From the NCBI RefSeq assembly GCF_040529335.1, contig NZ_CP159534.1:1798001-1862000 (forward strand): a stretch of 64,000 nt of DNA, in the 5' to 3' direction. The DNA comes from Streptomyces sp. HUAS MG91 (GTDB lineage: Bacteria; Actinomycetota; Actinomycetes; Streptomycetales; Streptomycetaceae). Below the pieces are notes generated by a model. It saw nothing but the letters and a program-made list of their open reading frames with translations, ran no database searches and was not told the DNA's origin. Of this stretch, positions 10,395 to 43,820 are shown piece by piece; position 1 is the first letter of the stretch; every line of letters begins with the position of its first letter. The translations under genes were made by a program, and so were the position numbers.

Positions 10395-10413
10395 GGGGTC
10401 CGGCCGATGCGCC

Positions 10414-12082: not shown

Positions 12083-12107
12083 CCCGGCACTCGACTCCCC
12101 CTCCCGT

Positions 12108-12141
12108 ACGCCCCGGCCGGCCGAGCAGCCCGCCGGGGCGT
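12108..12141. terminator. Hairpin between LPMO and MarR genes
   Basis: ACGCCCCGGC (12108-12117) pairs exactly with GCCGGGGCGT (12132-12141) around a 14-nt loop. It lies between the convergent LPMO and MarR genes and has no T-run. Confidence 0.55.
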
Positions 12142-12158
12142 CGGCGTGCCGCCCCGGC

Positions 12159-12521: not shown

Positions 12522-12528
12522 GACGCCC

Positions 12529-12885: not shown

Positions 12886-12933
12886 GCACCCCGGGCCCCG
12901 GCCCGCCCGAGACCTTCTCAGTCCTCCGACTCG

Positions 12934-13401: not shown

Positions 13402-13468
13402 GCGAGCACCTTAAGCCCCTCACCTCCACCACTTCGCATGCGATCAAATGTTCGAACACTGAGTTAGA

Positions 13469-13498
13469 GTGACCGTTGTTATCGAACGCGAGTACGAT
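13469..13498 (+). promoter_or_regulatory. LexA (SOS) box overlapping the dnaE2 -10 element
   Basis: TCGAACGCGAGTACGA at 13482-13497 matches the actinobacterial/Bacillus SOS consensus CGAAC-N4-GTTCG with one mismatch. It overlaps a candidate -10 TACGAT (13493-13498), with -35 GTGACC (13469-13474) 18 bp upstream. The position fits LexA blocking RNA polymerase. A separate perfect palindrome TGTTCGAACA lies at 13449-13458; its spacing is wrong for a LexA box. Confidence 0.75.
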
Positions 13499-13548
13499 TG
13501 ACTCATCGGACAGAAGCGGCGAAGGGGGCAAAGCGATGGAGGTGCGGC

Positions 13549-27510: not shown

Positions 27511-27841
27511 CTCACGTCCTCCTGTGGGGGGTTGGGAACCAGGCCGACGTGGGGGACGGACCGGGTTCCGTGAGGCTGACGGGCCCACTATCCCGACCGT
27601 CACAGGGGACACACAAGGTCGACTTCAGGACGCTCGTACGTCAACCCACGTCCACACCTTCACCCTTATGTGCAGCACCCCTGTCGAGGTCGTCCACTCG
27701 CGATCCCCAAAGCAAACACTCCGTGCGCGCACACTTGGGCACAGGGTGAGGACTAGTCCTGTCCAGAAATCGCCCCGTCAGGGGGCGCGGGGAACTACGC
27801 GACCGGCCACCCACGCCCACACCCGGCACACCGCGGAAGCC
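27511..27841. other. 331-bp gene-free region
   Basis: Between the protease start and the band-7 gene stop. It holds the presumed protease promoter near 27590-27615, a 12-bp palindrome AGGACTAGTCCT at 27749-27760, and an interspersed repeat at 27771-27810. No coding region with a ribosome site was found. Confidence 0.6.
27771..27810. repeat. Interspersed intergenic element with adjoining hairpin
   Basis: CGCCCC and GGGGCG form a short stem, followed by the shared core with one change (GGGGCGCGGGGAACTACGCG). It sits just past the band-7 stop and probably acts in 3'-end formation. Copy 3 of 5. Confidence 0.7.
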
Positions 27842-28827: not shown

Positions 28828-29733
28828 TCAGAACACGTGGACGCCGTACACGCTGAGCGCCTCGGTGACCGGCTGGAAGAACGTCGTGCCGCCGGACGTG
28901 CAGTTGCCGCTGCCGCCGGAGGTCAGACCGTAGGCCACGCCGCCGGTGGAGTAGAGGGCGCCACCGGAGTCGCCGCCCTCGGCGCAGACGTTGGTCTGGA
29001 TCAGGCCGGAGACGATGTCGCCGCTGCCGTAGTTCACGGTGGCGTTGAGCCCGGTGACCTTGCCGCTGTGGATGCCCGTGGTGGAGCCGTCACGGTAGAC
29101 GGTGGCGCCCACGCTCGGCGTGCCCGCGCTCTTGATGTCCGTGTTGCCGGCGGTGCCGGACTTGGTGACCGAGCTGTTGCTGTACTTCACCAGCGCGTAG
29201 TCGTTGCCGGGGAAGCTGTAGCTCACGTTCGAACCCAGCACCGTGGTCTTCGCGGAGTTCGAGTACCAGGTGGAGGCGACCTCGCCGCAGTGGCCCGCGG
29301 TCAGGAAGTAGTAATTGCCGCTGTTGTCCTGGACGTTGAAGCCGAGGGAGCAGCGGTAGGCGCCGCCGTAGATGGCGTCGCCGCCGGCGATCAGCTTCTT
29401 GAAGGTGCCGTTCGTCCGCTCGATCCGGAGCGCGCCCGCGTTGCTGCCGGCCCGTTCCGTGATCTTGTTGATCTCGGCCTGCGACACGGTGCTGTCGACG
29501 GTGACGAGGACCTTGCCCGTCTTGGCGTCGACGGCCCACGCGGTACCGCCGATGTCGGCGGACTCGACGGCGTCGCTTGCGCGGGTGAGCTGGGCCGCAC
29601 TGAACGTCTGGACCTCCGCGGCCTGCGCGGAGGGGATGGTGAACGCCGCGGCCGCCAGCAGTCCGGTGCCCGCGGCGATCAGCCCGGTCCGTCTCGCCAT
29701 GCCGCTTCGGGGGGTGGTGCGCTTGATCCTCAC
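28828..29733 (-). CDS. Secreted S1 serine protease, streptogrisin type, short propeptide
   Basis: 301 residues. The signal peptide ends near SAQAAEV; a propeptide shorter than that of its neighbour runs to about residue 110, followed by the mature domain ([14 protein letters not shown]). The triad is His in LTAGHCG, Asp in GNDYALV and Ser in GGDSGGA. The C-terminal third is almost identical in pattern to the protease at 26428 ([16 protein letters not shown]), so the two are paralogues. GTG 29733 follows AGGAGG. Both are expected to feed on extracellular protein. Confidence 0.92.
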
Positions 29734-29990
29734 TGGTCGTTCCCTCCTGAGGGAAGTCGGGGGCCCGCGTGGGGTCGGGGCCCGGTGAGGCGCGGTCAGG
29801 GACATCGGTGGTCCGGATTCCGAACACGTCGTGACCCTGACAAGCGCTGTTCGGGAGTATTCGGTCTCTCAACTACCCCGCACAAGAGCGGCTTTCGGCC
29901 GTCCACGGGATCTCCGCGCACGACTACAGGCCCCGGCGGCTCGGCTCGTACGGTGCGTACGGCCCGCCCGCCGGGGCTCGGCTCGACCTG

Positions 29991-30743
29991 TCAGACGGTC
30001 CTCGGCGCCGCCAGGTTCCGTTCGCCCGCCTCGATGTCCACGGGGAGGGTGTTGCCCGGGGGCGGGAAGGGGCAGAGGAAGTGGTCGGCGAAGGCGCAGG
30101 GTGGCAGCGTCGCCCGGTTGAGGTCGACCGTCGTGCGGCCCTCGGCGTCGGGCGCGGCCGGGTGCAGGAAGCGGAACCGGTAACTGCCGCGACCGCTGGT
30201 GCCGTCGGCGAAGACGGCCCAGAGCCGGCCGTCCGCCTGCCGCGCCACCTGCAGTGTGTGCTCCTGCCCGGCGAGGGTGAAGGACAGCTCGCCCGCGAGC
30301 CCGAGCGCGCGCTCCCTGCCGTCGGCGTTCGCCACGCGGACGTCCGTGCTCCCGCCCGGGTACGGGGTGAAGCGGCCCTCGACCGCCCAGCGCGGGTCGT
30401 ACGGGGTGGCGTCGATGCCCGCCGAATCCAGGAACGCCGTGCGGGCGGGCGCGGCCGGGTCGAAGTCCCGTACGCCCCACAGTCCTTCGCGGACGATCAC
30501 GACGAGCCGTCGCTCGCCGAGCGCGACGGTGGCGTCGGCGCCGAGCCGGGTCTCCGTGCCGTCCAGGGTGCGCACGACGGCGTCACCGTCCGTCCGCCAG
30601 CTCCCGGGGATGGCCGGAAGTTTGCCGTCCGGATAGTCGTCGAGCCAGTGGGTGCCGGTGAGCGAGAGGGGCCCGTGGGGCGCGGAGACGGACGCGGTCC
30701 GCTCTTCGTGCCACTGCTTCCAGGCGTCGGCGGCGTCGGTCAT
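29991..30743 (-). CDS. DUF1684-domain protein
   Basis: 250 residues, cytoplasmic. The family core is visible: WKQWHEERTASVSAPHGPLSLTGTHWL at the start and PYDPRWAVEGRFTPYP, ATLPPCAFADHFLCPFPPPGNTLPVDIEAGE near the end. DUF1684 has no settled function. It is the last gene of the sulfur-type operon; its ATG overlaps the stop of the LLM monooxygenase gene (ATGA), so it is made with that enzyme and may act on its product. Confidence 0.85.
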   Translation of the reverse strand: MTDAADAWKQWHEERTASVSAPHGPLSLTGTHWLDDYPDGKLPAIPGSWRTDGDAVVRTLDGTETRLGADATVALGERRLVVIVREGLWGVRDFDPAAPARTAFLDSAGIDATPYDPRWAVEGRFTPYPGGSTDVRVANADGRERALGLAGELSFTLAGQEHTLQVARQADGRLWAVFADGTSGRGSYRFRFLHPAAPDAEGRTTVDLNRATLPPCAFADHFLCPFPPPGNTLPVDIEAGERNLAAPRTV

Positions 30744-32026
30744 GCGGTGAGGGTCCTTTCGGGAGTGCGCAGTCCCAGATGGGAGCGCAGGGTGGAGCCG
30801 GTGTATTCCGTGCGGAAGGCGCCGCGCTCCTGGAGCAGCGGGACGACCCGGTCCACGAAGGCGTCGAGGCCACCGGGCGTCAGGTGCGGGACGAGGATGA
30901 ATCCGTCGGCGGCGCGGCCCGCCACGAACGCGTCGAGTTCGGCGGCGACCGCCTCGGGCGTGCCGATGAACGACTGCCGGCCGGTCGTCTCGATCACGGT
31001 CTGCCGGATGGACAGGCCCTTGGCGCGGGAGAGCGCCCGCCACTTCTCGGCGATCTCGAGGACGTCGCCGCGCCGGGTGCGTCCCTGGGAGAGGGCGGAG
31101 TCGGGGACCGGGTCGATGTCGGGCAGCGGCCCGTCGGGGTCGTAGGAGGAGAGGTCCACGCCCCACACCTGCTCCAGGGCGAGGATCGCGGTCTGCGGGG
31201 AGACCTGCTGCCGCCGGATCTCGGCGGCCTGCTCCTGGGCCTCGGCGGCGGTGTCGCCGAGCACGACGGTGACACCCGGCATGATCTTGAGGTCGTCGGG
31301 TTCGCGCCCGTACGCGGCCAGCCGGGCCTTCACATCGGCGTAGAAGGCCTGCCCGGCCTCCAGGGTGCCGTGCCGGGTGAAGATCACGTCGGCGGTGGAC
31401 GCGGCGAACTCGCGGCCCTCGGCGGAGTCCCCGGCCTGGATGACGACGGGGTGGCCCTGCGGCGGGCGGGGCACGGTGAAGTCGCCCTCGACGGTGAAGT
31501 GCCGCCCTTGGTGGTGGACGGGGTGGTCGGTGCCCGCGTCCCAGAACTCCCGTGCCACAGCGACGAATTCGGCGGCGCGTGTATAGCGGTCGGCGCGGTC
31601 GAGGTAGCCGCCGCGGCGGAAGTTCTCGCCGGTGAAGGCGTCGGAGGAGGTGACCACGTTCCAGGCGGCGCGGCCGCCGCTGAGGTGGTCGAGGGTGGCG
31701 AAGCGCCGAGCGGTGTCGAAGGGCTCGTTGAAGGTGGCGTTGACGGTGGCGGCGAGTCCCAGGTTCCGGGTCACGGCGGCGAGCGCGTTGAGCACGGTGA
31801 TCGACTCGGGGCGGCCGACGACGTCCAGGTCGTGGATGCGGCCGCGCTGCTCGCGCAGCCGGAGGCCTTCGGCAAGGAAGAAGAAGTCGAACAGGCCGCG
31901 TTCGGCGGTGCGGGCCAGGTGCTCGAAGGAGGCGAAGTCGATCTGGGACTTCGAGCGCGGGTCGGCCCACACGGTGGTGTTGTTGACGCCCGGGAAGTGG
32001 GCGGCGAGATGGATCTGCCTGGTCAT
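30740..32026 (-). CDS. LLM-class FMN-dependent monooxygenase (NtaA/SnaA/DszA type)
   Basis: 428 residues, the length of the two-component NtaA/DszA group. Typical blocks: TVWADPRSKSQIDFASFEHLARTAERGLFDFFFLAEG, SGGRAAWNVVTS, PQGHPVVIQAGDSAEGREFAA, and IGTPEAVAAELDAFV. These enzymes use FMNH2 supplied by a separate reductase to cleave C-S or C-N bonds; the nearest functional relatives by context are the CmoO/CmoJ enzymes acting on S-substituted cysteines. ATGA overlaps on both sides couple it to the second LLM gene and to DUF1684. Confidence 0.88.
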   Translation of the reverse strand: MTRQIHLAAHFPGVNNTTVWADPRSKSQIDFASFEHLARTAERGLFDFFFLAEGLRLREQRGRIHDLDVVGRPESITVLNALAAVTRNLGLAATVNATFNEPFDTARRFATLDHLSGGRAAWNVVTSSDAFTGENFRRGGYLDRADRYTRAAEFVAVAREFWDAGTDHPVHHQGRHFTVEGDFTVPRPPQGHPVVIQAGDSAEGREFAASTADVIFTRHGTLEAGQAFYADVKARLAAYGREPDDLKIMPGVTVVLGDTAAEAQEQAAEIRRQQVSPQTAILALEQVWGVDLSSYDPDGPLPDIDPVPDSALSQGRTRRGDVLEIAEKWRALSRAKGLSIRQTVIETTGRQSFIGTPEAVAAELDAFVAGRAADGFILVPHLTPGGLDAFVDRVVPLLQERGAFRTEYTGSTLRSHLGLRTPERTLTA

Positions 32027-33081
32027 GAGCGGGCCCCCGGGGCGGCTGCGTACTGGCTGGCGGGCCGGGCGAGCCCCAGGTGTTCGCGCAGGGTGCTGCC
32101 CGGATAGAAGGTGCGGAACAGGCCGCGGTGCTGGAGCAGCGGCACGGTGCCGTTGACGAGGCGTTCCAGGTCGCGGCGCGGGTCGAGCGGGGTGAGGTGG
32201 AAGCCGTCGGCGGCGCCCGCCCGGTGCCAGGCGGCGATCAGCTCGGCCAGGTCGACGGGCCCGCCCCGGTAGAGCGGTCCCTCGCCGGTGGGCAGCGGTC
32301 CGCCGCCGTGGCCGGGCTGGGCGGCGTGCTCGCCGCCGCCGAGGTCGATGCGGAGCGCGGCGAGCACCCGCAGTTCGTCCGGGTCACGGCCGTGCTCGGT
32401 GGCGCGGCGCCGCAGCCCGGCCCGGGCGGCGGCTAGCTGGTCCGGGTCGGGGGCGCCGACGAGCGCGACGTCGGCGTGCCGGGCCGCGACGTCGTACGCG
32501 TACGGCTGGGTGGCGTCCACGACGACGACGGGCCGGCCCTGGGGCGGCCGGGGCACGATGGACGGGCCGCGCACGGAGAACGTCCGGCCCTCGAAGTCGA
32601 CGTAGTGCAGCTTGTCGCGGTCGATGAAGCGGCCGGTGGCGACGTCCCGGATCTCGGCGTCGTCCTCCCAGCTGTCCCACAACCTCGCCGCCACGTCGGC
32701 GACTTCACCGGCCTCGTGCCACAGGTCGGCGGGCGGCGCGGCCGTGTCCCGGCGTCCGAAGAGCCGCGACTCGTCGTCGCCCGGCGACACGTCGGGGCGC
32801 CAGCCGGCCCGCCCCCGGCTCACCCAGTCCAGGGTGGCGACGGCGGCCTGGACGTGGAACGGCTCGGTGTGGGTGGTGGTCACGGTGGGCACGAGCCCGA
32901 TCCGGGAGGTCTCCGGGGCGATCCTGGACAGCACGGCGAGGGCGTCGGGGCCGGGCGCCGCGAAGGTGTCGCGCAGGGTGACGAAGTCGAGCGCGCCGTG
33001 CTCGGCGAGCCGGGTGAGCTCCAGGTAGGGGGCGGGATCGTAGGTGTCGGCGAGGTCGACGGCGGCGGCGAGATGAAGCAT
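32023..33081 (-). CDS. LLM-class flavin-dependent oxidoreductase
   Basis: 352 residues, a second and shorter bacterial-luciferase-like barrel. It keeps LHLAAAVDLADTYDPAPYLELTRLAEHGALDFVTL, SRGRAGWRPDVSPG, and PQGRPVVVVDATQPYAYDVAARHADVALV. Paired LLM monooxygenases are a feature of organosulfur loci. The two differ in length and central sequence, so they probably act on different steps or substrates. It overlaps the next gene by ATGA. A gap of 111 bp with a hairpin-bearing repeat separates it from the binding-protein gene. Confidence 0.85.
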   Translation of the reverse strand: MLHLAAAVDLADTYDPAPYLELTRLAEHGALDFVTLRDTFAAPGPDALAVLSRIAPETSRIGLVPTVTTTHTEPFHVQAAVATLDWVSRGRAGWRPDVSPGDDESRLFGRRDTAAPPADLWHEAGEVADVAARLWDSWEDDAEIRDVATGRFIDRDKLHYVDFEGRTFSVRGPSIVPRPPQGRPVVVVDATQPYAYDVAARHADVALVGAPDPDQLAAARAGLRRRATEHGRDPDELRVLAALRIDLGGGEHAAQPGHGGGPLPTGEGPLYRGGPVDLAELIAAWHRAGAADGFHLTPLDPRRDLERLVNGTVPLLQHRGLFRTFYPGSTLREHLGLARPASQYAAAPGARS

Positions 33082-33112
33082 GGCGGGAGGAACCTTTCAT
33101 CGAGGGGGCAGG

Positions 33113-33155
33113 CCCGCGCCCCGAAAGGGGCGCGGGGAACTGCGCGACCAGCCAC
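33113..33155 (-). repeat. Interspersed element with tetraloop hairpin inside the operon
   Basis: CCCGCGCCCC (33113-33122) and GGGGCGCGGG (33127-33136) form a perfect 10-bp stem closed by GAAA; the shared core (GGGGCGCGGGGAACTGCGCG) starts at 33127. It sits between the binding-protein and LLM genes and may lower expression of the enzymes relative to transport. Copy 4 of 5. Confidence 0.75.
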
Positions 33156-33192
33156 GACGGCGTCGCGGCGAACCGAGGCACACACCGCCCGC

Positions 33193-34161
33193 CTACGTCT
33201 TGGGCAACCCGGCAGGGTTGACCTCCGACTTCGGCACGGCCTCACTGGACAGCCCCCACCGCTTCAGCACCCGGGCGTACGACCCGTCCTCGATGACATG
33301 GTTGAGCGCGGCCGCGTAGGCGTCGACGAGCCCGCTGCCCTTCTTCGTCGTCGCGGCGATCTCGCCCTGGACCTCGTCGCCGCCGCCGGAGATGGTGCCG
33401 ATGATCTGCGACTGTCCGGCGGACGCCACGTGGTAGGAGGCGGCCGGGCTCGGTCCCAGGTAGGCGTCGATGCGGCCGGACTGGAGCGCCAGGTAGTAGT
33501 CCGTGTCCTTCTGGAAGTACTTGATGGTGACGGGCTTGCGGCCCGCCTTCTCGTTGCGCTTGCTCCAGTCGACGAGGATCTTCTCCTGGTTGGTGCCGGA
33601 GGAGACGGCGATGGTCTTTCCCGCGACGTCCTTGGGCTCCTTCACCCGCCAGTTCGTGCCCTTCTTGGCCTCGAAGGCGATGTTGTCGAGCCGGTAGGTG
33701 GCGAAGTCGTACTTCTCCTTGCGCTCCTCGGTGACGGTGACGTTGGAGAAGACGGCGTCGAACTTGCCGCTGTCGAGCCCGACGAACAGGTTCTCCCAGC
33801 TCACCAGCTCCTGCTTGACCTTGAGCCCGAGGGTGTCGGCGACGAGGGTGGCGAGGTCGAGCTCGGAGCCGATGCGGGTCTTGTCGTCGGTGGCGAAGAA
33901 GCCGAGTGGCGGGGAGGCGTCGGCGCTGCCGCCGAGCCGCAGCGTGCCGCGCTCGCGCACGGCCGCGGGCAGCAGCGCGGCGATCTTGTCGACCTTCTTG
34001 CCGCGGATGCGGTGCTGGTCGGGGCCGATGTTGACGTTCCCGACCTTCTTCGTGCCGGCGGCGCCGGTGGTGGCGGCGTCGCTGTCCCCGCCGCAGGCGG
34101 TGAGCAGCGGGGACAGGGCGAGCGCGGCGACGGAGGCGGTCAGGGTGCGGCGGGACAACAT
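33193..34161 (-). CDS. Amino-acid-type ABC transporter binding lipoprotein (SBP family 3)
   Basis: 322 residues. The signal ends in the lipobox LLTAC-GGD, so the protein is lipid-anchored outside the membrane. The SBP_bac_3 fold is shown by LRLGGSADASPPLGFFATDDKTRIGSELDLATLVADTLGLKV and VSWENLFVGLDSGKFDAVFSNVTVTEERK. It is one of two binding proteins for this transporter. ATG 34161 has GAGGAG upstream; a TTG at 34176 is in frame but would hide that site. Family members bind cystine, histidine or related polar amino acids. Confidence 0.88.
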   Translation of the reverse strand: MLSRRTLTASVAALALSPLLTACGGDSDAATTGAAGTKKVGNVNIGPDQHRIRGKKVDKIAALLPAAVRERGTLRLGGSADASPPLGFFATDDKTRIGSELDLATLVADTLGLKVKQELVSWENLFVGLDSGKFDAVFSNVTVTEERKEKYDFATYRLDNIAFEAKKGTNWRVKEPKDVAGKTIAVSSGTNQEKILVDWSKRNEKAGRKPVTIKYFQKDTDYYLALQSGRIDAYLGPSPAASYHVASAGQSQIIGTISGGGDEVQGEIAATTKKGSGLVDAYAAALNHVIEDGSYARVLKRWGLSSEAVPKSEVNPAGLPKT

Positions 34162-34205
34162 CTTCGTACTCCTCAAAGCAGTTGTGGAAAGGGGGAGTTG
34201 GTAGA

Positions 34206-34967
34206 TCAGAGGACCTTGGAGAGGAAGGCGCGGGTGCGGTCCTCGCGCGGCGCGTCCAGTACGTCGCCGGGGGCGCCCCGCTCGACGATGCGGCCCTCGT
34301 CCATGAACACGACGGTGTCGGCGACCTCGCGGGCGAAGCCGATCTCGTGGGTGACGACGATCATCGTGGTGCCCTGGTGGGCGAGGTCGCGGATGACGTC
34401 GAGGACCTCGCCGACCAGTTCGGGGTCGAGCGCGGACGTCGGCTCGTCGAACAGCAGCAGCTTGGGCTCCAGGGCGAGGGCCCGGGCGATGGCGACGCGC
34501 TGCTGCTGGCCGCCGGAGAGCTGACGCGGATAGGCGTCGGCCTTGTCCGCGAGGCCGACGCGGTCGAGCAGCTTGCGGGCGCTGTCCACCACCTCGGCGC
34601 GGGGCCGCTTGAGCGCGGAGAGCGGCGCCTCGACGATGTTCTCCAGGACCGTCAGGTGCGGGAAGAGATGGAAGTTCTGGAAGACGAAGCCGATGTGCGT
34701 GCGCTGCTTGAGGATCTCCCGCTCGCGCAGCTCGTACAGCTTGTCGCCGGAGCGGCGGTAGCCGACGAGCTGTCCGTCGACACTGATCCAGCCGCTGTCC
34801 ACCTTCTCCAGGTGGTTGATGGTGCGCAGCAGCGTCGACTTGCCGGAGCCGGACGGGCCGAGGACGACGGTGACCTCGCCGGCCCGCACCTCCAGGTCGA
34901 TGCCGCGCAGCACCTCGACGGAGCCGAAGCTCTTGTGCACGGACTTGATGTCCACCATGGCGCTCAT
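34206..34967 (-). CDS. Polar amino-acid ABC transporter ATPase
   Basis: 253 residues with the full ABC set: Walker [11 protein letters not shown]-loop FQNFHLF, signature LSGGQQQR, Walker B LLLFDEP, and H-loop VTHE. This is the PAAT (GlnQ/TcyN) group that energises import. It is the only ATPase gene in the block and must serve both permeases. ATG 34967 overlaps the permease stop by ATGA. Confidence 0.93.
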
Positions 34968-35863
34968 CGGGTGGAACCTTTCGCGAAGTGACGCTCCACG
35001 TAGTACTGGAGTACGGAGAGCGCGCTGGTCAGGAGGATGTACCAGGCGGTGGCGACCATCAGCAGGGGCACCACGCGGCCGTTGCGGCCGTAGATGACCT
35101 GCACCTGGTAGAAGAGTTCGCCGATCGCCATGACGGAGACGATCGAGGTGCCCTTGAAGAGGGAGATGACCTCGTTCGCGGCGTTGGGCAGGATCGAGCG
35201 CATCGCCTGCGGCAGCACGATGCGGCGGATCTGCCGCAGGCGCGGGATGCCGAGGGCGGCCGCGGCCTCCAACTGGCCGCCGTCGACGGCGAGTACACCG
35301 CCGCGCACGATCTCGGCAGCGTACGCGGCCTGGTGCAGGGCGAGGCCGAGCACGGCCGCGCTCATGGCGCCGACGAGGCCCATCGTGTCGAAGGAGAAGA
35401 AGCCGGGCCCGAAGGGGATGCCGAACTGCAACTCCTTGTACAGGTAGGCCAGGTTGAACCAGAACAGCAGCTGCACGATCAGCGGGATCGAGCGGAACGC
35501 CCAGATGTAGCCGAACGCCACGGTGCGCAGGAACCGGCTGCTCGACAGGCGCATGAACGCGATGACGATGCCGAGCGCGAAGCCGAGCGCCGTGCCGTAG
35601 GCGGTGAGCTGGAGCGTGGTCCAGACGGCCTTGAGGATGACGTCCGCGGTGAAGAACTCCGCGAACACCTCCCATTCCCAGCCGGAGTTGGTGGCCAGGC
35701 CGTGCGCGAACTGGGCGAGCAGCACGGCGGTGACGACGATGGCCACCCAGCGCAGGGGATGGCGTACGGGGACGACCTTGAGGTGTGCGTAGGCGTCCTT
35801 CGGCGCTTCGGTGGCGGCGCCGGTGTCGGTGGTGCCCAGGGGCGGGTCACTGGTCAGAGACAT
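34964..35863 (-). CDS. Amino-acid ABC transporter permease (first)
   Basis: 299 residues. A 35-residue cytoplasmic N-terminus precedes about five helices. The EAA loop for ATPase docking is [29 protein letters not shown]. Most similar within the window to the permease at 37706, with which it probably forms a heterodimer, as TcyL/TcyM do. The next upstream gene ends 61 bp away. Confidence 0.92.
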
Positions 35864-35924
35864 GGGTGTCCTCGGAGACGGACGAACGGGGAGGAAGAGC
35901 GGGGCGGGACCGGCCGGGCCGGTC

Positions 35925-37709
35925 TCAGGCGGCGGTGGTGCGACAGGAGAGGTCGCGCAGCAGCGCGAGGACGGCGCGGGCCGTGGCGTCGTTCTGCCGG
36001 AACGACGGGCCGTTGGTGCGCGGCCGGGTGAAGGCGCCGGCGCCGCGCGCGTCGGTGTGCGGGCCGAGGGCGAAGCGGCGCGGGTGGGCGGAGCCGTCGC
36101 GGTACAGGACGCGCCCGTCGGACGGGTCGACGGCGAGCAGTCCGGCGTCGGTCGACCGGGCGCCCTCCTCGTGGAGGGTGCGCAGCAGCCGGTCCCGGGT
36201 GCGGGCGAGGGTCGGCTGCGGCAGCCGGGCCTCGACGAGCGCGCGGGCCTCGATCCGGACGCCGGGCGCGCTGGCGCTCGTGGCCCGGAAGACGCCGTCG
36301 CGTGCCTCGACCCGCATGTCGGCGCCGACGAACTTCACGACGCCCGCGCGGGACAGCGCGAGCAGTTGGCGCAGGCGCGGGCCGGGCGGCCCGGATGCCA
36401 GGTAGCTGAAGAATCCGTGCCACCAGGGGCCGACGTCGCCGAGCCGGACGAGCTGCCCGTACACGGAGAGCAGGCCGAGGAAGACGGCGAGGTCGGGGCT
36501 GTGCGCCGGGTCGTGGCGGCGCTCCAGGTCGTCGGTGATGTGGCCGCGCAGGCCGGCCTGGAGTTCCTCGTACGAGGCGTGGCGCACCCCGTCGAGCGGG
36601 CGGTCCAGGGCGGCGAGGTCGAGCCGGTCGGCGGGGTCGGGCACACTGGCGGCGACGAGCGCCTGCTGTTCGGCGCTGAGCGGCGCGGCGGCGGCGTACT
36701 TCTCCTCGAAGACGTCCCAGGCGACGCTGGTGCGCTCGGGGTGGGCGGTGAACAGCCGGTGGTAGTGCGCGAAGCCGAGTTCCTTGTCGATCAGCGGCCA
36801 CACCTCGCACCGGAAGTCGTCGGGCCCGAACCCGCCTTCCTTCGCGAGGAGTTCGTCGATCTGCGCGGGTCCGAGGAAGCGCGGCAGCGGCGGCCGCTCC
36901 CCCGCGTCCCAGTCGTAGCCGAGCTTGGAGTGGTAGGGCACTCCGCGCCGCGATCCGACGTGCAGCACCGGCTCCCGCCCCGAGGGCACATAGGTGTCCC
37001 CCTCGAAGCGTCCGCCGCGCCCCTCCGTCAGCAGCACCATCAGGTCGACGAAGGCGAGCCCGAAGCCGCGGACGAGCACGTCCTGGCCGGGCGCGAGCGC
37101 GCCGAGGTCGGAGTCGGCGGTGAAGTCGGGCGGCAGGTGCACGAGCCCGTGCCGCGCGGCGTACTCACTCAACTCCATCTGCTCGTCGTCGAGTTCGGCG
37201 TCCAGATGCCCCTGGGCGAGGACGACGGCGTCGGCGGACAGCGGCCGCGTCACCCCTTCGAGCCACACCTGCTGGCGGCCGTGGCGCGATCCGGAGACGC
37301 GCAGGGCGCGCCGGGGATGGTGGTGGACGGTGACCCCGTCGGGCAGCGCGGCGACGGCCCGCTCGTACACCCACCGCAGATAGCCGCCCTGCCGTCGCCG
37401 GTCGGCGAAGGTCCGCCCGTCGATCCCGGCCCACTCGTGCAGCACGGGCCCCGGCACCACGGGCCCGGCCAGCTCCACCGTGTCGTCGGTGAACATGGTG
37501 ACGTCCTGGGCCTGCGAGTTCATCCAGAGCAGCGGCGACTGCTCGCGCCGCCAGATGCGCCCGCCGCCCGGCGGATAGGGGTCGACGAGATGCACGTCGA
37601 GCGCCAACTCGCCGTAATCGTCACTGGTATTGGCGGCGAGACGCTCCAGGATACCGGTCCCCCGCGGCCCGGCCCCCACGATCACCAGGGACTGCCGTAC
37701 GGTACTCAT
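35925..37709 (-). CDS. FAD/NAD(P)-binding protein of the NAD_binding_9 type
   Basis: 594 residues. LVIVGAGPRGTGILERLAAN is the dinucleotide fold; DVHLVDPYPPGGGRIWRREQSPLLWMNSQAQDVTMF is typical of the FAD-NAD(P)-binding family (PF13454), and SADAVVLAQGHLD a second nucleotide segment. Reaction unknown. In this operon it could oxidise an imported thioether or amino acid, or relate to flavin supply for the LLM enzymes; the latter is weaker because these proteins are not known FMN reductases. It overlaps the second permease gene by ATGA, so it belongs with transport. Confidence 0.8.
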   Translation of the reverse strand: MSTVRQSLVIVGAGPRGTGILERLAANTSDDYGELALDVHLVDPYPPGGGRIWRREQSPLLWMNSQAQDVTMFTDDTVELAGPVVPGPVLHEWAGIDGRTFADRRRQGGYLRWVYERAVAALPDGVTVHHHPRRALRVSGSRHGRQQVWLEGVTRPLSADAVVLAQGHLDAELDDEQMELSEYAARHGLVHLPPDFTADSDLGALAPGQDVLVRGFGLAFVDLMVLLTEGRGGRFEGDTYVPSGREPVLHVGSRRGVPYHSKLGYDWDAGERPPLPRFLGPAQIDELLAKEGGFGPDDFRCEVWPLIDKELGFAHYHRLFTAHPERTSVAWDVFEEKYAAAAPLSAEQQALVAASVPDPADRLDLAALDRPLDGVRHASYEELQAGLRGHITDDLERRHDPAHSPDLAVFLGLLSVYGQLVRLGDVGPWWHGFFSYLASGPPGPRLRQLLALSRAGVVKFVGADMRVEARDGVFRATSASAPGVRIEARALVEARLPQPTLARTRDRLLRTLHEEGARSTDAGLLAVDPSDGRVLYRDGSAHPRRFALGPHTDARGAGAFTRPRTNGPSFRQNDATARAVLALLRDLSCRTTAA

Positions 37710-38566
37710 CGCCGCGTCCCGCGCGCGTAGTGCCGCTCGACGTAGTACTGGCCGACGCTGAGCAGCGAGGTCACCACGACGTACCAGAGGGTGGCGACGA
37801 GCAGCAGCGGGATGACCTGGTAGGTGCGGTGGTAGACGAGCTGCACCGAGTAGAGCAGGTCCTGCACGGCGATGATGCTGACGATGGAGGTGCCCTTGAG
37901 GGTGCCGATCAGCATGTTCCCGGCCGGCGGCACGATGGCCCGCATGGCCTGCGGCAGCACGATCCGGCGCCAGCGCCGGTACCGGCCGAGCCCGAGCGCC
38001 TGGGCCGCCTCCACCTGTCCCCGGTCCACGGAGAGGATGCCGCCGCGCACCACCTCGGCGGCGTACGCGGCCTCGTGCAGGGTCAGTCCGACGATGGCGA
38101 CGGTGACGGGCCCGAAGAGGTCGACGGTCTTCACCCCGAGGACGCGCGGGTACAGGGCGCCGATGTTGAACCAGAACAGCAGCTGCACCAGGATCGGCAC
38201 CGACCTGAACAGCCACACATAGCCCCAACTCACGGCGCGCAGCACGGGGTTGGCGGACAGTCGCATGACGGCGAGCAGGGTGCCGAAGGCGAAGCCGAGC
38301 GTCATGACGAGCGCGGTCAGCCACAGCGTGAGCCAGAGTCCGCGCAGCACGGAGGCGGTGGTGAAGTAGTCGGCGACCACGTCCCACTGGAACGCCTCGT
38401 TGCGCAGTACCGAGTTCACGGCGAGGCCGAGCAGGACGAGCACGACGGCCGCGGCCGTCCACTGTCCGGTGCGGCGGCGCGGGACGATGCGTGGGACGGC
38501 GGAGATCTTGCCGGGTGGCGCTTCGGCCAGGGGATCCGAGGGGGACGAAAGGGTGTCTGAGGACAT
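37706..38566 (-). CDS. Amino-acid ABC transporter permease (second)
   Basis: 286 residues. Five or so helices, with the EAA loop [29 protein letters not shown]. First gene of the leftward eight-gene operon. ATG 38566 was chosen for position and for the similar N-terminal tail of the other permease; the frame is open further upstream but crosses the presumed promoter. Forms the channel with the permease at 34964. Confidence 0.92.
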   Translation of the reverse strand: MSSDTLSSPSDPLAEAPPGKISAVPRIVPRRRTGQWTAAAVVLVLLGLAVNSVLRNEAFQWDVVADYFTTASVLRGLWLTLWLTALVMTLGFAFGTLLAVMRLSANPVLRAVSWGYVWLFRSVPILVQLLFWFNIGALYPRVLGVKTVDLFGPVTVAIVGLTLHEAAYAAEVVRGGILSVDRGQVEAAQALGLGRYRRWRRIVLPQAMRAIVPPAGNMLIGTLKGTSIVSIIAVQDLLYSVQLVYHRTYQVIPLLLVATLWYVVVTSLLSVGQYYVERHYARGTRR

Positions 38567-38672
38567 GGGAAGGCTCCGTGGGCTGGAATCCCGTCCAGTC
38601 GGTCCTGCCGTCACACCTGCTGCGCGTGTGTGTAGCGCTCGGGCCGAGCCCCTCAGCAGCGGTCCCGCACCG

Positions 38673-38703
38673 AGAGTACGGGGCCTGTCACGCCGTCTGT
38701 CAA
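38673..38703 (-). promoter_or_regulatory. Candidate promoter of the leftward transport/oxygenase operon
   Basis: On the minus strand TTGACA (38703-38698) and TACTCT (38678-38673) are separated by 19 bp, about 105 bp upstream of the permease start. The rightward leader has its own TTGACG at 38740-38745, so the two promoters lie back to back within 40 bp. Confidence 0.5.
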
Positions 38704-38774
38704 GGCTGTCCAGACTGTGAGCCGCGCGTCTCAAGTGAGTTGACGCCGAACCGTATGCCTGTTCCACTAAGCCC

Positions 38775-38846
38775 ATGCATCCGCAGCAGTGGCTGGTCAC
38801 CCGCTCCCACATCGACTTCGGTCGCGTGTGGTCCGCGTCCTGTTGA
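38775..38846 (+). CDS. Cys-terminated leader peptide (23 residues)
   Basis: ATG 38775 to TGA 38844-38846. The peptide ends RSHIDFGRVWSASC-stop, which fits the actinobacterial leader pattern RxHVDLxRxxSAxC found before sulfur-assimilation genes. The only Cys codon is the last sense codon. There is no Shine-Dalgarno sequence, and a -10-like CACTAA ends 5 bp before ATG, so the transcript may be leaderless. A hairpin with a T-rich tract follows. It points to cysteine supply as the regulating signal for the binding-protein gene at 39012. Confidence 0.8.
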   Translation: MHPQQWLVTRSHIDFGRVWSASC

Positions 38847-38855
38847 TGCCCTTCC

Positions 38856-38890
38856 GACGCCTCTGAGCGCGTCTTTTCTTCTTTTCTTTC
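38856..38890 (+). terminator. Candidate attenuator after the leader peptide
   Basis: GACGC (38856-38860) pairs with GCGTC (38869-38873), followed at once by TTTTCTTCTTTTCTTT. The same GACGC could instead pair with GCGTC at 38835-38839, inside the Ser-Ala-Ser-Cys end of the leader. So ribosome position near the Cys codon could decide which stem forms. The stem is short, so confidence is limited. Confidence 0.45.
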
Positions 38891-39011
38891 CCGGCGTTCC
38901 CGCCGTTCTTCGACGCGTCCCACTCCCTTTCCCGGTACGCGCCCTCACCCTGCTGCACGCTCCCCTCGCTCAGCCGGTTCCTCTTGCCATCGAAGGGCAC
39001 AGCTCTCAGCC

Positions 39012-39980
39012 ATGCGCTCCTCCACCCGTACCTCCCGCCTGTCCGGTTCCTCCGCACTCTCCGCTTTCGCCCTGATCACTGTCGCCGCTCTGGGGCTGAC
39101 CGCCTGCGGTTCGGGGGACGGTACGGACGACGCGGCGCCGGCCGGCGCCGCGAGCGACAAGATCCCGACGAAGGACGTGGTGTCGTCCGTCGCGAAGGAT
39201 CCCGCCTCGGCGAAACTCCTCCCCGCGTCCGTCCGCAAGAGCGGCAGCCTCACCATCGCGGTGAGCGTGGGCGGCACCCCGCCCAACTCCACGTACCTGC
39301 CCGACGGGAAGACCGTCGTCGGACAGGACATCGACTTCGCGAACGCGGTCGCCAAGGTCCTCGGCATCAAGCTGGACCAGCAGATCGCGAGCTTCGAGGC
39401 GATCCTCCCGGCCCTCGACAGCGGCAAGTACGACCTCGGCACCGGGAACTTCGGCGTCACCGACGAACGCCGCAAGACGATCGACTTCGTCACGTACATC
39501 AACGACGGTCAGGGCTTCGCCGTCCGCAAGGACAGCGACCTGAAGAAGGTCACCGACCTGACACAGCTGTGCGGCCTGAACGTCGCGACCGGCGCCGGCA
39601 CCACCTTCGAGACGACGCTGGAGGAGAACAAGGGCCTGTGCGAGAAGGCGGGCAAGAAGCCGTACGACGTGAAGACGTACGCGGAGTCGAGCGCGGTCTG
39701 GTCGTCGCTTCAGCAGGGGCGCAGCGATGTGGTGATGAGCACCATCAACGGGCTGCGCTACGGGGTGGCCCATCAGGAGGGGCTGCGGTTCCTCAATGAG
39801 TTCCATCGGCTGGATGTCGGTTTCGCGTTCAAGAAGGGGACGCCGCTGGCCCCCGCGTTCCGCTCCGCGGTGAACCGGCTCATCGCGGACGGCACTTACC
39901 GGAAGATCCTGGCCAAGTGGGGTACGTCGGAGTCGTCGATCAGCACGTCGCGGATCTCCCCACCGGAGATCAAGGACTGA
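39012..39980 (+). CDS. Amino-acid-type ABC transporter binding lipoprotein (second, SBP family 3)
   Basis: 322 residues. Signal peptide with lipobox LGLTAC-GSG. SBP_bac_3 fold: LTIAVSVGGTPPNSTYLPDGKTVVGQDIDFANAVAKVLGIK and FEAILPALDSGKYDLGTGNFGVTDERRKTIDF. It has an internal Cys pair (QLCGLN ... GLCEKAG) that may form a disulfide. Transcribed alone, divergent from the transport operon and behind the Cys leader peptide. With the protein at 33193 it gives this transporter two receptors, as TcyJ/TcyK do in Bacillus. Confidence 0.9.
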   Translation: MRSSTRTSRLSGSSALSAFALITVAALGLTACGSGDGTDDAAPAGAASDKIPTKDVVSSVAKDPASAKLLPASVRKSGSLTIAVSVGGTPPNSTYLPDGKTVVGQDIDFANAVAKVLGIKLDQQIASFEAILPALDSGKYDLGTGNFGVTDERRKTIDFVTYINDGQGFAVRKDSDLKKVTDLTQLCGLNVATGAGTTFETTLEENKGLCEKAGKKPYDVKTYAESSAVWSSLQQGRSDVVMSTINGLRYGVAHQEGLRFLNEFHRLDVGFAFKKGTPLAPAFRSAVNRLIADGTYRKILAKWGTSESSISTSRISPPEIKD

Positions 39981-40101: not shown

Positions 40102-40698
40102 TCACCGGGAGGCGGCGGCCACCCGGCGTCCCCGGACCCGCACCCCGATGACCTGATCCATCAGCGCCCCCAGAACATCCCGCACAGACGCCCGCGCCCG
40201 CGCATCACACTCCACGACCGGCACCGAGTCGCCCACCCCCAATGCCTCCCGGATCTCCCCGAGTTCAAAGCGCTCCGAGCCCTCGAACCGGTTCACGGCG
40301 AGCACGAACGGCGCCCCGTGCGCCTCGAAGTAGTCCAGCGCGGGGAAACAGTCCTCGATGCGCCGGGTGTCGACGAGGACGACCGTGCCGAGCGCCCCTT
40401 CCACCAGGTCGTCCCAGAGGAACGAGAACCGGTCCTGCCCGGGCGTGCCGAAGAGATACAGCGCGATCGTCGGATCGAGCGTGATGCGCCCGAAGTCGAG
40501 GGCGACCGTGGTGGTCGTCTTGCCCTCGACGCCCGCCAACGAGTCGACGCCCACCGAGACCTGGGTGATCGCCGCCTCGGTGTCGAGCGGCTCGATCTCC
40601 GAGACGGCCCCGATGAAGGTCGTCTTGCCGACCCCGAGCCCACCACTGACCACGATCTTCACGGCCAGCGGGGCGACGCGTTCAGAGCGCCCTGACAT
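40102..40698 (-). CDS. cvnD: Conservon Ras-like GTPase (CvnD)
   Basis: 198 residues. G1 is SGGLGVGKTTF, the switch-II region is LFGTPGQDRF, and AVNRFEG stands in for NKxD. CvnD/MglA-like GTPases relay the sensor state in actinobacterial conservons. Its start overlaps the DUF742 gene by 17 bp. Last gene of the cvnA-B-C-D set. Confidence 0.92.
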   Translation of the reverse strand: MSGRSERVAPLAVKIVVSGGLGVGKTTFIGAVSEIEPLDTEAAITQVSVGVDSLAGVEGKTTTTVALDFGRITLDPTIALYLFGTPGQDRFSFLWDDLVEGALGTVVLVDTRRIEDCFPALDYFEAHGAPFVLAVNRFEGSERFELGEIREALGVGDSVPVVECDARARASVRDVLGALMDQVIGVRVRGRRVAAASR

Positions 40699-41041
40699 GG
40701 TCCCTGATCCTTTCGAGGGTGTGGAGCGGCAGCTCCGCGGTGTGCGAACACGACAGCCGGCCGCCCACGACGAGGTCGGCGATGAGCACCTTGGCGACGC
40801 CGAGCGGCACCCCGATGGCCTCGGCCACATGGGCGACGGTGGTGGGTTCCTGACAGAGCGTCACGATGCGCCGGTGCTCGAAGGCGAGCGGCGCGCCGCC
40901 GTCCGGGGCGTCCACGTCCACCGCGACCACGAGGGTCTCGAGCCGCAGATCGGCCTGGGCGGGCCGCACCCGTCCGCCGGTGATGATGAAGGGACGCACG
41001 AAGGCTTCCGACGAGTCGCCGGGCTCGCGGGACTCGCTCAT
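40682..41041 (-). CDS. cvnC: Conservon DUF742 protein (CvnC)
   Basis: 119 residues. VRPFIITGGRVRP, then the winged-helix-like IVTLCQEPTTVAHVAEAIGVPLGVAKVLIADLVVGGRL, is the DUF742 signature. CvnC proteins bind the other conservon parts at the membrane. ATG 41041 overlaps the cvnB stop (ATGA). Confidence 0.93.
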   Translation of the reverse strand: MSESREPGDSSEAFVRPFIITGGRVRPAQADLRLETLVVAVDVDAPDGGAPLAFEHRRIVTLCQEPTTVAHVAEAIGVPLGVAKVLIADLVVGGRLSCSHTAELPLHTLERIRDHVRAL

Positions 41042-41466
41042 CGCGGCAGCGTCTCCCGCAGATCGGCGATGAGCGTCGGCGTGAGCAGGTCTCCGGCGCG
41101 CTCGGCGAGCACCGCCATCTCGTAGCCCACGAGGCCGAGTTCACCGCTGCTGTCCGCGAGCACCCCGAGACAGCTGCCGTCCCTGATCGCGGAGACCAGC
41201 AGGAAGCCGCGGCCCATCTCGATCATGATGAGTTTCACGCCGTCGAAGCTGTACCGCTTGGAGGCGCTGCGGGCGAGGCTGGAGAGTCCGGAGACGATGG
41301 CGGCCAGATGGTCGGCCTCGGTCCGCCCGAGCCCTTCGGAGACGGCGATGAGCAGTCCGTCCGAGGAGACCGCGACGGCGTCGCGCACCCCGTCGGTGTT
41401 GCGGACGAAGTTGGCGAGCAGCCAGTTGAAGGTCTGCGAGTCGCCCCGCGTGTCGACGGTGGTCAC
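41038..41466 (-). CDS. cvnB: Conservon roadblock/LC7 protein (CvnB)
   Basis: 142 residues of roadblock fold: FNWLLANFVRNTDGVRDAVAVSSDGLLIAVSEGL, then IMIEMGRGFLLVSAIRDGSCLGVLADSSGELGLVGYEM. Roadblock proteins act as GTPase-activating or docking partners of the CvnD GTPase. GTG 41466 overlaps the cvnA stop (GTGA). Confidence 0.93.
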   Translation of the reverse strand: MTTVDTRGDSQTFNWLLANFVRNTDGVRDAVAVSSDGLLIAVSEGLGRTEADHLAAIVSGLSSLARSASKRYSFDGVKLIMIEMGRGFLLVSAIRDGSCLGVLADSSGELGLVGYEMAVLAERAGDLLTPTLIADLRETLPR

Positions 41467-43820
41467 TTGTCGCCCTGCCCTTCGCCGGTGTTCTGCTCGG
41501 TGCCCTCGGGGGCGGTTTCCCTGGCGGCCCGTTCCCGCTCCACGCTGATGGATCCGCGCATGTGGGCGCTGCGCAGCCCGGACAGCATTCCGGAGACGTC
41601 CTCGGGGCTGCGCTCGACGGCGGGCCCCTCGGGTGCGGGCCTGGCGGGCGCGTCCGCCTCGGTCACGGCCTTCGCGATGGCGCTGCGCTGCGGGCGCTTG
41701 ACGAGCCCGTTGCGGGTGCGGGACGCCGACGACGCGGACCTGGGTGCCGCGGCCGCGGCGACGGTCTGCTCCCGGCGCGGGGCGGGCAGCACGGCCTCGC
41801 CGCCGCCGGTGCGTCCGGCCGTGACGGGCCGGGCCGCGGCCGCCTTCACGGCCCTCTCCCTGGGGGTCTCCCCCTGCGGCGCGGCGGGCCCGGCCGCCGT
41901 CGGCTCCGCCTCGGTGAGCAGCGTGGACGGGATGAGGACACGGGCCACGACACCGGCGGCGGGCGCCTCGCCGAGGCGGACCTCGATGCCGCACTTGCGG
42001 GCGAGCGCGCCGACCACGAAGTGGCCGAGGAACCGGGTGGGTTCGGCCATGAAGCTGGCGGTGCCGGAGAGCCGTACGTTGGCCTCGGCGAGCGCCTGGG
42101 TGTCCATGCCGAGCCCGTGGTCGACGATCGCGATGAGGTACCCGGCGCTGGTGCGCCGCCCCTCGATCTCCACGTCGGAGTCGGGCGGCGAGAAGCTCAG
42201 CGCGTTCTCCACCAGCTCGGCGATCAGGTGGGCGAGTTCGGCGACGACGGAGCCGGACACCTGGGCGGGCTCGACCCGGCGCAGGGTGACGCGGCGGTAC
42301 TCCTCGACCTCGGAGAGCGAGGCGCGCAGGACGTCGTTGACGGAGAGCGGGGTCGCCCAGGTGCGGGGGCTGGACTCCCCTGCGAGGACGAGCAGGGACT
42401 CGGCGTTGCGGCGCATACGGGTGGCCAGGTGGTCGAGTTCGAAGAGGTTGGCGAGGGTGTCGGGGTCGGCGTCCTCGTGCTCCAGCTTGTTGATGAAGCC
42501 GATCTGGCGGCGCACCAGGTTCTGGTTGCGGCGGCCGAGGCTGACCAGCGACTCGGTGGCGTTCCTGCGCAGCACGGCCTGCTCGGTGGCGAGGTCGAAG
42601 GCGGCGCGCTGCACCCGGTCGAAGGCGTCGGCCACCTCGCGCACCTCGGCGCCGGCGCGGGCGTCGAGCCCGAGCGGCGCGGGCGGCGCGGGCGCCTCGC
42701 CCCCGGCGGCGGACTGCACGTCGGCGACGGCCCGCGGCAGCCGCACCCCGGCGACCTCGCGGGCCTCCTGGGCGAGTCCGCTGAGCGGCGCGGACACGGA
42801 TCGTACGCAGTCGCGGGCGAGGGCGGCGAGGGCGCCGATCACGGCGAGCGCGAGCAGCACAAAGAGCAGCAGGTCCCGCTGGGCGGAGCTCTCCAGCTGG
42901 GCGGCGCGCGCCTCGACGTCGGAGCCGATGGAGATCTGGACGTCCCGCAGGCCGTTGATGGTCGAGGTCATCGTGTCCCACCAGGCCATGGGCGGGACGT
43001 CGGCGGCGGCGAGGCGGCCCGCGCCGTGCACGGCGACCGACTCGTAGGCGAGGGCGCGCTCGGCGTCGGGGGTGGCCAGCGCGGTGTCGAGCCGGCGCTG
43101 CTGCGCCGCGGTCGCGGTGCGCGGGAAGGAGGTCAGCGCGGCCAGCCGGCCCGACCTGATCTCCATGAACCGGCTGTAGTCGTCGCCGCGGAAGCGGCCG
43201 CCGGCCCGGACGGAGCCCAGCACGATGGCGCGCTCCTGCCCGAGGTACTCCTTGGCGGTGCCGAGGACCTGGAGCGACTGGTAGGCGTCGCGCAGCCGTG
43301 CGTCGTCGACGTCGCCGAGGCCGCGCCCGGCCTTGGCGAACTGGGCGATGGTGTTGGTGAAGTAGTCGAAGGTGGCCTTCACCTGCCCGGAGCCGTCGTC
43401 CGCGGCGGAGCGGATCCCGGCGAGTCCGCCGAGCCGCCCGAGCGCGTCGCGTGCCGCGCCGGCTCCCTCGCGCCGCGCGAGCGCGGTCTCCAGGGCGGTG
43501 CGGGCGGCGTCGGTGGCCTTGCGCTGGGCGGGGAGCTTGGCGGCGAACTGCTGGACGCCGCCGACGTACCCGGTGGTGAGGCCGCGCTCCTTCTGCAGCT
43601 CGTGGACGAGGCCCTGGAGGGTGACCTCCAGGCGTGCGTTGCCGGCGGTGGCGGACGCGCCGCGGTAGCCGGAGATCTGCTCGGCGGCGAAGACCCCGAG
43701 CAGGGCGAGGAGCACGGCGAGCGCGAGTCCGAGGATGCGCAGCAGCCGGGTCCGGATGGTCGTGCTTGTTCTGGGCCGGGGAAAAGCCCTCTTGAACTGA
43801 ACGGTCGACAGGAGTTCCAC
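41463..43820 (-). CDS. cvnA: Conservon sensor-kinase-like protein with nitrate/nitrite-type sensor domain (CvnA)
   Basis: 785 residues. Helix about 26-48, an outer NIT-type sensor domain (about 50-310, with HELQKERGLTTGYV), a second helix (about 312-335), a linker, and a HATPase domain: N-box AELVENALSFSPPD and G-box VDHGLGM. I see no clear phosphoacceptor His box, as in many CvnA proteins. The last 170 residues are disordered, rich in Ala/Pro/Arg. GTG 43820 with AAGG upstream. No cytochrome P450 gene (cvnE) follows the set. Confidence 0.92.
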   Translation of the reverse strand: MELLSTVQFKRAFPRPRTSTTIRTRLLRILGLALAVLLALLGVFAAEQISGYRGASATAGNARLEVTLQGLVHELQKERGLTTGYVGGVQQFAAKLPAQRKATDAARTALETALARREGAGAARDALGRLGGLAGIRSAADDGSGQVKATFDYFTNTIAQFAKAGRGLGDVDDARLRDAYQSLQVLGTAKEYLGQERAIVLGSVRAGGRFRGDDYSRFMEIRSGRLAALTSFPRTATAAQQRRLDTALATPDAERALAYESVAVHGAGRLAAADVPPMAWWDTMTSTINGLRDVQISIGSDVEARAAQLESSAQRDLLLFVLLALAVIGALAALARDCVRSVSAPLSGLAQEAREVAGVRLPRAVADVQSAAGGEAPAPPAPLGLDARAGAEVREVADAFDRVQRAAFDLATEQAVLRRNATESLVSLGRRNQNLVRRQIGFINKLEHEDADPDTLANLFELDHLATRMRRNAESLLVLAGESSPRTWATPLSVNDVLRASLSEVEEYRRVTLRRVEPAQVSGSVVAELAHLIAELVENALSFSPPDSDVEIEGRRTSAGYLIAIVDHGLGMDTQALAEANVRLSGTASFMAEPTRFLGHFVVGALARKCGIEVRLGEAPAAGVVARVLIPSTLLTEAEPTAAGPAAPQGETPRERAVKAAAARPVTAGRTGGGEAVLPAPRREQTVAAAAAPRSASSASRTRNGLVKRPQRSAIAKAVTEADAPARPAPEGPAVERSPEDVSGMLSGLRSAHMRGSISVERERAARETAPEGTEQNTGEGQGDK

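Follow-up and report, generated by a model that had tools for sequence, protein, structure and literature searches.

The 64,000-nucleotide stretch of Streptomyces sp. HUAS MG91 analysed here (the window: contig NZ_CP159534.1, positions 1,798,001 to 1,862,000 of the forward strand, from a genome of 8.6 Mb in two contigs) contains at 29991-39980 a group of nine genes that very probably serves sulfur acquisition. Listing of open reading frames (ORFs) and profile searches identified one DUF1684 protein, two luciferase-like monooxygenases (LLMs; PF00296), two family 3 solute-binding proteins (SBPs; SBP_bac_3), one ATP-binding cassette (ABC) ATPase, two permeases (BPD_transp_1) and one PF13454 protein of the flavin adenine dinucleotide (FAD)/NAD(P) type. 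These matches bear out the inventory of the initial annotation, which had been made from the sequence alone and had proposed that the genes salvage sulfur from S-substituted cysteines. Eight genes lie leftward on the minus strand, in the order permease 1 (37706-38566), the FAD protein (35925-37709; 594 residues), permease 2 (34964-35863), the ATPase (34206-34967), SBP-B (33193-34176), LLM-A (32023-33081; 352 residues), LLM-B (30740-32026; 428 residues) and the DUF1684 protein (29991-30743; 250 residues), with SBP-A (39012-39980) divergent on the plus strand. Four of the seven leftward junctions are overlaps of 4 nt (30740-30743, 32023-32026, 34964-34967 and 37706-37709), so the description of ATGA overlaps joining most of these genes is just true, and the other three are gaps of 111, 29 and 61 nt.

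This arrangement was compared across 103 loci, consisting of the window, 22 loci from relatives, and the best 80 of at least 586 stretches encoding a relative of the FAD protein in a scan of species genomes, these 80 coming from Streptomyces and close kin. As only the best 80 stretches were retained, the counts give no prevalence; three duplicate pairs are included, and the FAD gene, being the query, is present in all 103 loci by design. With some contigs being short, LLM-A was found in 88 loci, the DUF1684 gene in 70, permease 1 in 66, the ATPase in 63, SBP-A in 61, LLM-B in 53, permease 2 in 18 and SBP-B in 17. The complete nine-gene order recurred in ten loci, the window included, and hence the arrangement is beyond chance.

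The link to sulfur comes from a 23-codon leader ORF (38775-38846, plus strand; MHPQQWLVTRSHIDFGRVWSASC) upstream of SBP-A, which the initial annotation did not list, and in which cysteine is the last codon before the stop. The leader matches NF042936, the family of the Ms4527A cysteine-rich leader, with an E-value of 3e-5 and 23.5 bits, below the curated cut-off of 45. Scoring 150 of 244 first-look candidates in the same genome against this family returned at least 14 places at E<=10, of which the best 11 were examined, one being this locus; seven of the other ten precede a gene of sulfur type, as judged by family. Genes starting within approximately 0.5 kb downstream of these leaders include a sulfatase, a NirA-type nitrite/sulfite reductase, SsuE (over cut-off), an SsuC-like permease, an SsuD-like LLM and a TIGR03860 LLM (under cut-off); a cysteine synthase (cysKM over cut-off) lies within the same distance of another leader, with a small ORF in between. 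The three less clear cases precede a glutathione S-transferase (GST)-like protein, an NMT1-like protein and a dicarboxylate-type symporter. Hence a leader type shared with sulfur-type genes of the same genome ties the locus to sulfur, and lends well-supported additional weight to the original sulfur-salvage reading, as far as the acquisition of sulfur is concerned.

Of the 103 loci, 100 have the leader core, which is conserved at the nucleotide level, with a GGT codon fixed in 96 of 97 distinct contexts and a TGT codon in all 97, both being rare within the nine genes (14 of 282 glycine codons and one of eight cysteine codons). A hairpin with a UUCG or CUCG loop, at 38807-38831 (plus strand) within the leader ORF of the window, is possible in 99 of 100 leaders. 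The window leader is followed, 3' of its stop, by a weak terminator-like hairpin with a T-rich tail (38856-38883, plus strand; one found against 0.3 expected from shuffles). A C-rich block approximately 115-140 nt downstream of the core start is also conserved and would fit a Rho site, Rho-dependent control having been suggested for mycobacterial cys leaders (Seliverstov et al. 2005, PMC1262725). The likeness to the mycobacterial Ms4527A leaders (Canestrari et al. 2020, as cited in PMC9031893) consists of a short ORF ending in cysteine before sulfur-type genes. However, the leaders of this locus type usually have one or two cysteine codons, whereas those of the Ms4527A family have contiguous cysteine codons, and the former contain conserved hairpin-forming sequence, fall below the NCBIfam cut-off, and are kept even where there is no binding-protein gene downstream.

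A binding-protein gene lies within 3 kb of 63 of the 100 leaders and, at a threshold of 1e-4, is missing from 36, the remaining leader being on a contig that is too short; the 36, which include the duplicate pair L032 and L088, are approximately as conserved as the 63. These 36 (L035, L089, L104 and L131 are examples) retain the leader ORF, hairpin and C-rich block, and in L043 the leader is directed at the FAD gene instead. Four genomes having a leader without a binding-protein gene (G011, G014, G031 and G036) have best permease-1 relatives that are just 45-55% identical, and located elsewhere. Such leaders could be explained either by a leader RNA or peptide acting in trans, or by an element that serves the FAD operon as DNA too. 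Upstream of permease 1, at approximately 38695-38725 on the minus strand, there is a further conserved block containing TTGACA, which is perhaps the -35 element of the leftward operon; a promoter scan returned no site.

The importer may be of the cystine type, as the best NCBIfam matches of the ATPase (PF00005; TcyN, a cystine family, 326.6 bits, cut-off 406) and permease 2 (PF00528; cystine permease, 136 bits, cut-off 300) are cystine transporters, both below their equivalog cut-offs. Permease 1 (PF00528) is best matched by EhuC (152.5 bits), then by a cystine permease (142 bits), both again below cut-off. SBP-A and SBP-B match PF00497 with 93.9 and 86.3 bits respectively, and the two have lipobox-like starts (LLTACGG and LTACGSG). 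The arginine of the TDERR motif of SBP-A, and of the TEERK motif of SBP-B, is kept. The aspartate of AncQR, a residue with a role in binding the amino group of the ligand, is present in five of the ten family 3 SBPs of this genome. Its absence from SBP-A and SBP-B may be compatible with the uptake of compounds that are already N-acetylated, a weak argument given that three of the eight other SBPs lack it as well.

Both LLMs lean towards TIGR03860. LLM-B scores 409 bits, over the cut-off of 279.7, and its best PDB matches are YtnJ/CmoJ (290 bits) and NtfO2 (286 bits), with 3sdo at 255 and EmoA at 171.8. LLM-A is under the cut-off with 234.5 bits; searched as a single sequence, it matches the sulfone monooxygenase DszA/BdsA best in the PDB, whereas a 20-sequence profile gave 3sdo (titled nitrilotriacetate monooxygenase) and YtnJ/CmoJ as the best matches, not DszA. 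The predicted model of LLM-A (pLDDT 84.5) is a barrel that matches CmoJ, as well as BdsA and both NtfO chains. The initial annotation had counted two Cmo-type LLM enzymes, which is apt for the CmoJ-like LLM-B, but is not supported in the sense of a CmoO and CmoJ pair, as both proteins lean towards the family of CmoJ and the contacts for flavin mononucleotide (FMN) are missing from LLM-A. No separate CmoO-type LLM was recognised in the window, as judged from the TIGR03860 leaning of both proteins, without comparison to a CmoO sequence.

Mapping onto the two proteins the eight residues that are reported to contact FMN in NtfO2 (PMC8027225) showed seven kept in LLM-B of the window, with arginine replacing His151, as in 40 of 49 LLM-B sequences. 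In LLM-A of the window one was kept and seven were replaced; for five of the seven, the substitute recurs in 41 to 50 of the 50 LLM-A proteins whose locus also encodes LLM-B. The segment W.S.EDDA..RD..TGRF is kept in LLM-A, absent from LLM-B and NtfO2, and may be the side loop tail described in the NtfO paper (PMC8027225). The identity of LLM-A to the window protein was 71.8% in loci with LLM-B (n=47), against 62.7% in those without (n=29; Mann-Whitney p 2.6e-6, indicative only, as related sequences are not independent), comparing loci of at least 19 kb with LLM-A, two duplicate pairs included and the window and L051-L053 left out. There was no such difference for the FAD protein (p 0.68) or the DUF1684 protein (p 0.72). 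The loss of FMN contacts from LLM-A, and its decay where LLM-B is missing, make it likely that the two form one enzyme, in which LLM-A is the partner of a catalytic LLM-B as NtfO1 is of NtfO2 (7e36). The two pairs are alike in that a short and a long TIGR03860-like protein are encoded side by side, of which the long one keeps the FMN contacts and lacks the segment kept by the short one (PMC8027225). They differ in that NtfO1-NtfO2 homologues hydroxylate a polyketide (PMC8027225), whereas the present heterodimer is predicted from sequence, and in that LLM-A, with 352 residues, exceeds the 324 of NtfO1. Two loci of genus g7 encode a third LLM between SBP-B and the DUF1684 gene (L210, 4550-5731; L211, 4240-5373), for which the nearest family is TIGR04036 (the CE1758 family), under cut-off.

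The sole PDB relative of the FAD protein at E<=1 is L-aspartate N-hydroxylase (8cp2), which matches over its full length (E 1.3e-89). In this enzyme of Streptomyces sp. V2, the aspartate site comprises R13, R276, N413, R416 and R577, with N62 over the flavin (PMC10404684). An alignment of nine locus enzymes shows R13, N62, R577 and R593 unchanged; in all nine, glycine takes the place of N413, one of V, I, L, T, H and P that of R416, and P or A that of R276, the alignment being gapped near R276. All three residues are retained by an FAD paralogue elsewhere in the same genome (L060, G000:C1:2648100-2667900, 9010-10836). The PF13454 domain (126 bits), together with the retention of N62, R13 and R577, assigns the locus protein to the class B FAD/NADPH monooxygenases. 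Set in a sulfur-type locus, and with the entry-chamber residues N413, R416 and R276 replaced in all nine, it departs from L-aspartate N-hydroxylase, and its substrate probably differs from aspartate. That it is an S-oxygenase is a tentative proposal, held at somewhat less than even odds; S-oxygenation is preferred because CmoO performs this step in Bacillus (PMC10863075), and no CmoO-like LLM was recognised in the window.

The DUF1684 protein matches PF07920 with 134.5 bits (cut-off 25), and a Cx7C pair near its C terminus is conserved. Its fold search returned haloarchaeal DUF1684 structures (HVO_1043; 4dlh, 2lok and 2lnu), one titled as a mercury complex, which share its fold, family and Cx7C motif, whereas the locus protein is approximately 60 residues longer and lies beside organosulfur-type enzymes. 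In Haloferax, a DUF1684 gene has been grouped with thiol relay functions for its Cx7C motif (PMC9426492), and the CmoJ product is a sulfenic acid that is subsequently reduced (PMC10863075). From these two points it might be proposed as the sulfenate reductant, a doubtful assignment; the family occurs in 36 of 149 genomes of the phylum, and so is not bound to this locus. The FAD and DUF1684 proteins, described at first as two enzymes with no role in the Bacillus pathway, thereby acquire candidate roles in S-oxygenation and sulfenate reduction.

Acetylation has been described as crucial in all breakdown of S-modified cysteines reported to date (PMC12757645). The acetyltransferase noted as lacking is indeed missing from the window, which has no GNAT match and no acetyltransferase among its nine genes, but this does not extend to the locus type. 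Among 99 genomes drawn around G053, 39, all belonging to one genus other than Streptomyces, have a GNAT coding sequence with an FAD relative, side by side in 37 (on the same contig, no more than approximately 200 nt apart by match ends) and fused in two (G053 and G109). The FAD protein of L053 carries a C-terminal GNAT domain (PF00583, 4.7e-12), and L209 encodes fused GNAT and FAD as one 854-aa frame, while G078 has them on separate contigs and G101 has a GNAT without a close FAD relative. Six of the 103 loci, all from Streptomyces (L040, L041, L050, L051, L052 and L165), have a GNAT ORF overlapping the SBP-A start by 4 nt, and in L040 and L041 it occupies the space between leader and SBP-A. 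Hence N-acetylation belongs to the locus type, and the GNAT would have been lost from the window's locus. Two explanations fit: another GNAT may substitute, there being one in a second locus of this genome, or compounds that are already N-acetylated may be taken up, such as mercapturates, which mycothiol detoxification yields from mycothiol conjugates. The lack of a deacetylase, also noted at the outset, holds for the window, which contains none of the nine M20_dimer matches (E<=1e-10) in the genome.

The second organosulfur-type locus, at C1:7.80 Mb (L204, G000:C1:7790000-7809900, 10033-16021), contains a GNAT, a leader, LLM-A' (44%), LLM-B' (62%), a second leader and a GST-like protein. LLM-A' and LLM-B' adjoin an ABC importer in L206-L208, accompanied in L207 by a GNAT, and genes of both locus types appear together in L051 and L052. 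LLM-B' is present, with 64-66% identity, in four genomes in which the first locus is without LLM-B (G001, G003, G017 and G020), and could explain its loss there; G037, also without LLM-B in the first locus, had no LLM-B' match at 1e-30. In addition, L205 (G000:C1:8172000-8191500, 7312-11979) places a window-like ABC ATPase, permease and binding protein next to the best M20 match of the genome, and is possibly a third locus or a source of deacetylase.

The proposed function is therefore to recover the sulfur of S-substituted cysteines, perhaps also of N-acetylated forms such as mercapturates, with a probability of approximately 0.6 for both this substrate class and the overall sequence of import, S-oxygenation, C-S cleavage and sulfenate reduction. 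Cysteine shortage would slow translation of the leader, allowing transcription to continue into SBP-A. SBP-A and SBP-B would then deliver to a single ABC importer formed by permeases 1 and 2 and the one ATPase; the class B monooxygenase would stand in for CmoO and oxygenate what has been imported, with sulfur as the most likely site; LLM-B, with a non-catalytic LLM-A, would split the sulfoxide at its C-S bond in the manner of CmoJ; and the Cx7C pair of the DUF1684 protein may reduce the resulting sulfenate. The Bacillus subtilis CmoO/CmoJ (ytn) and scm (yxe) systems are similar in their CmoJ-class C-S cleaving LLM, LLM-B being the counterpart of their CmoJ/ScmK-class FMN monooxygenase, in their sulfur context, and in the GNAT found in relatives of the locus; they also use an amino-acid type ABC importer. 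However, the window lacks their acetyltransferase and M20 deacetylase, and has no recognised separate CmoO-type LLM, whereas it adds the class B FAD monooxygenase, an LLM partner that lacks FMN contacts, the DUF1684 protein and the cysteine leader. The locus would thus work like the Bacillus S-alkylcysteine pathways, but is not classed as a member of them, given the missing acetyltransferase and deacetylase. Of the claim that this is their actinobacterial counterpart, the sulfur context, the cystine-leaning importer and the CmoJ-like LLM-B survive; the CmoO and CmoJ pair, and the lack of an acetyltransferase as a feature of the locus type, do not.

Several observations weigh against the S-substituted cysteine reading. 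The leader is under its NCBIfam cut-off, the leader survey scored only part of the first-look candidates, and NF042936 gives weak matches in nine of 14 control genomes, such that its E-values alone are insufficient for the sulfur link. Folded alone, the leader has an unremarkable energy (z -0.98), and a simple SBP-A attenuator leaves unexplained the 36 leaders without a binding-protein gene within 3 kb. LLM-B has arginine where NtfO2 has an essential histidine (PMC8027225). No deacetylase is encoded in the locus, the best M20 match lying elsewhere beside another ABC set, and both SBPs are without the AncQR aspartate, as are some others of the genome. With some contigs short, 50 of the 103 loci are without LLM-B, and approximately 40 without importer genes, so neither is indispensable to whatever retains the FAD gene.

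The same missing aspartate would suit import of another class of organosulfur compound, such as aromatic thioethers or sulfones, sulfonates, or methionine-like molecules, by the amino-acid ABC system and oxidation by the same enzymes, as would the single-sequence match of LLM-A to DszA/BdsA and the many substrates on which TIGR03860 enzymes act. This is nevertheless unlikely, as the ATPase and permease 2 lean to cystine families, the LLM-A profile prefers 3sdo and YtnJ/CmoJ over DszA, the GNAT of related loci is not known to be used by sulfonate or dibenzothiophene routes, and the genome already has, behind leaders of the same type, separate SsuC-, SsuD- and SsuE-like genes. Degradation of an aminopolycarboxylate or other non-sulfur compound, as by nitrilotriacetate or EDTA monooxygenase systems, would account for the membership of LLM-B in the NtaA/DmoA family and for the LLM-A profile matching 3sdo best in the PDB, but is highly improbable given a leader family common to sulfur-type genes, and the higher score of LLM-B with CmoJ (290 bits) than with 3sdo or EmoA.

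Alternatively, the FAD enzyme might act on the alpha-amine of the amino acid that is taken up, as its relative does on aspartate, N-oxygenating it to an oxime or nitro compound from which beta-elimination would release the thiol. Having as sole PDB relative a full-length N-hydroxylase, with R13, N62, R577 and R593 kept in the nine aligned enzymes, would favour such chemistry, which is nonetheless decidedly unlikely: the pocket residues replaced in all nine are kept in paralogue L060, none of the nine genes is in a family known for nitro or oxime chemistry, and the N-acetylation found in relatives would block the amine. In a very unlikely version of this route, oxygenation of the amino nitrogen of S-substituted cysteine would eliminate the thiol, joining the N-hydroxylase relative to an LLM pair with one flavin-site subunit. 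If true, such amino-nitrogen priming would represent a route of C-S cleavage not described for the Bacillus pathways in the papers cited here. Salvage by S-oxygenation of substituted cysteines, if correct, would mean that streptomycetes recover damaged or plant-derived cysteines with oxygenation and thiol-handling parts unlike those of Bacillus, would give testable roles to DUF1684 and to the non-aspartate branch of the N-hydroxylase family, both groups being without a role so far, and would place in primary metabolism a luciferase-like monooxygenase split into flavin-site and flavin-site-less subunits. The leader, in turn, offers a marker for locating the cysteine regulon of Streptomyces.

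On either side of the locus, judged by eye, two leftward ORFs with GDSGG motifs have the look of secreted serine proteases (26428-27612 and 28828-29805), and a conservon-like leftward set at 40102-43820 includes GTPase-like and histidine-kinase-like proteins.

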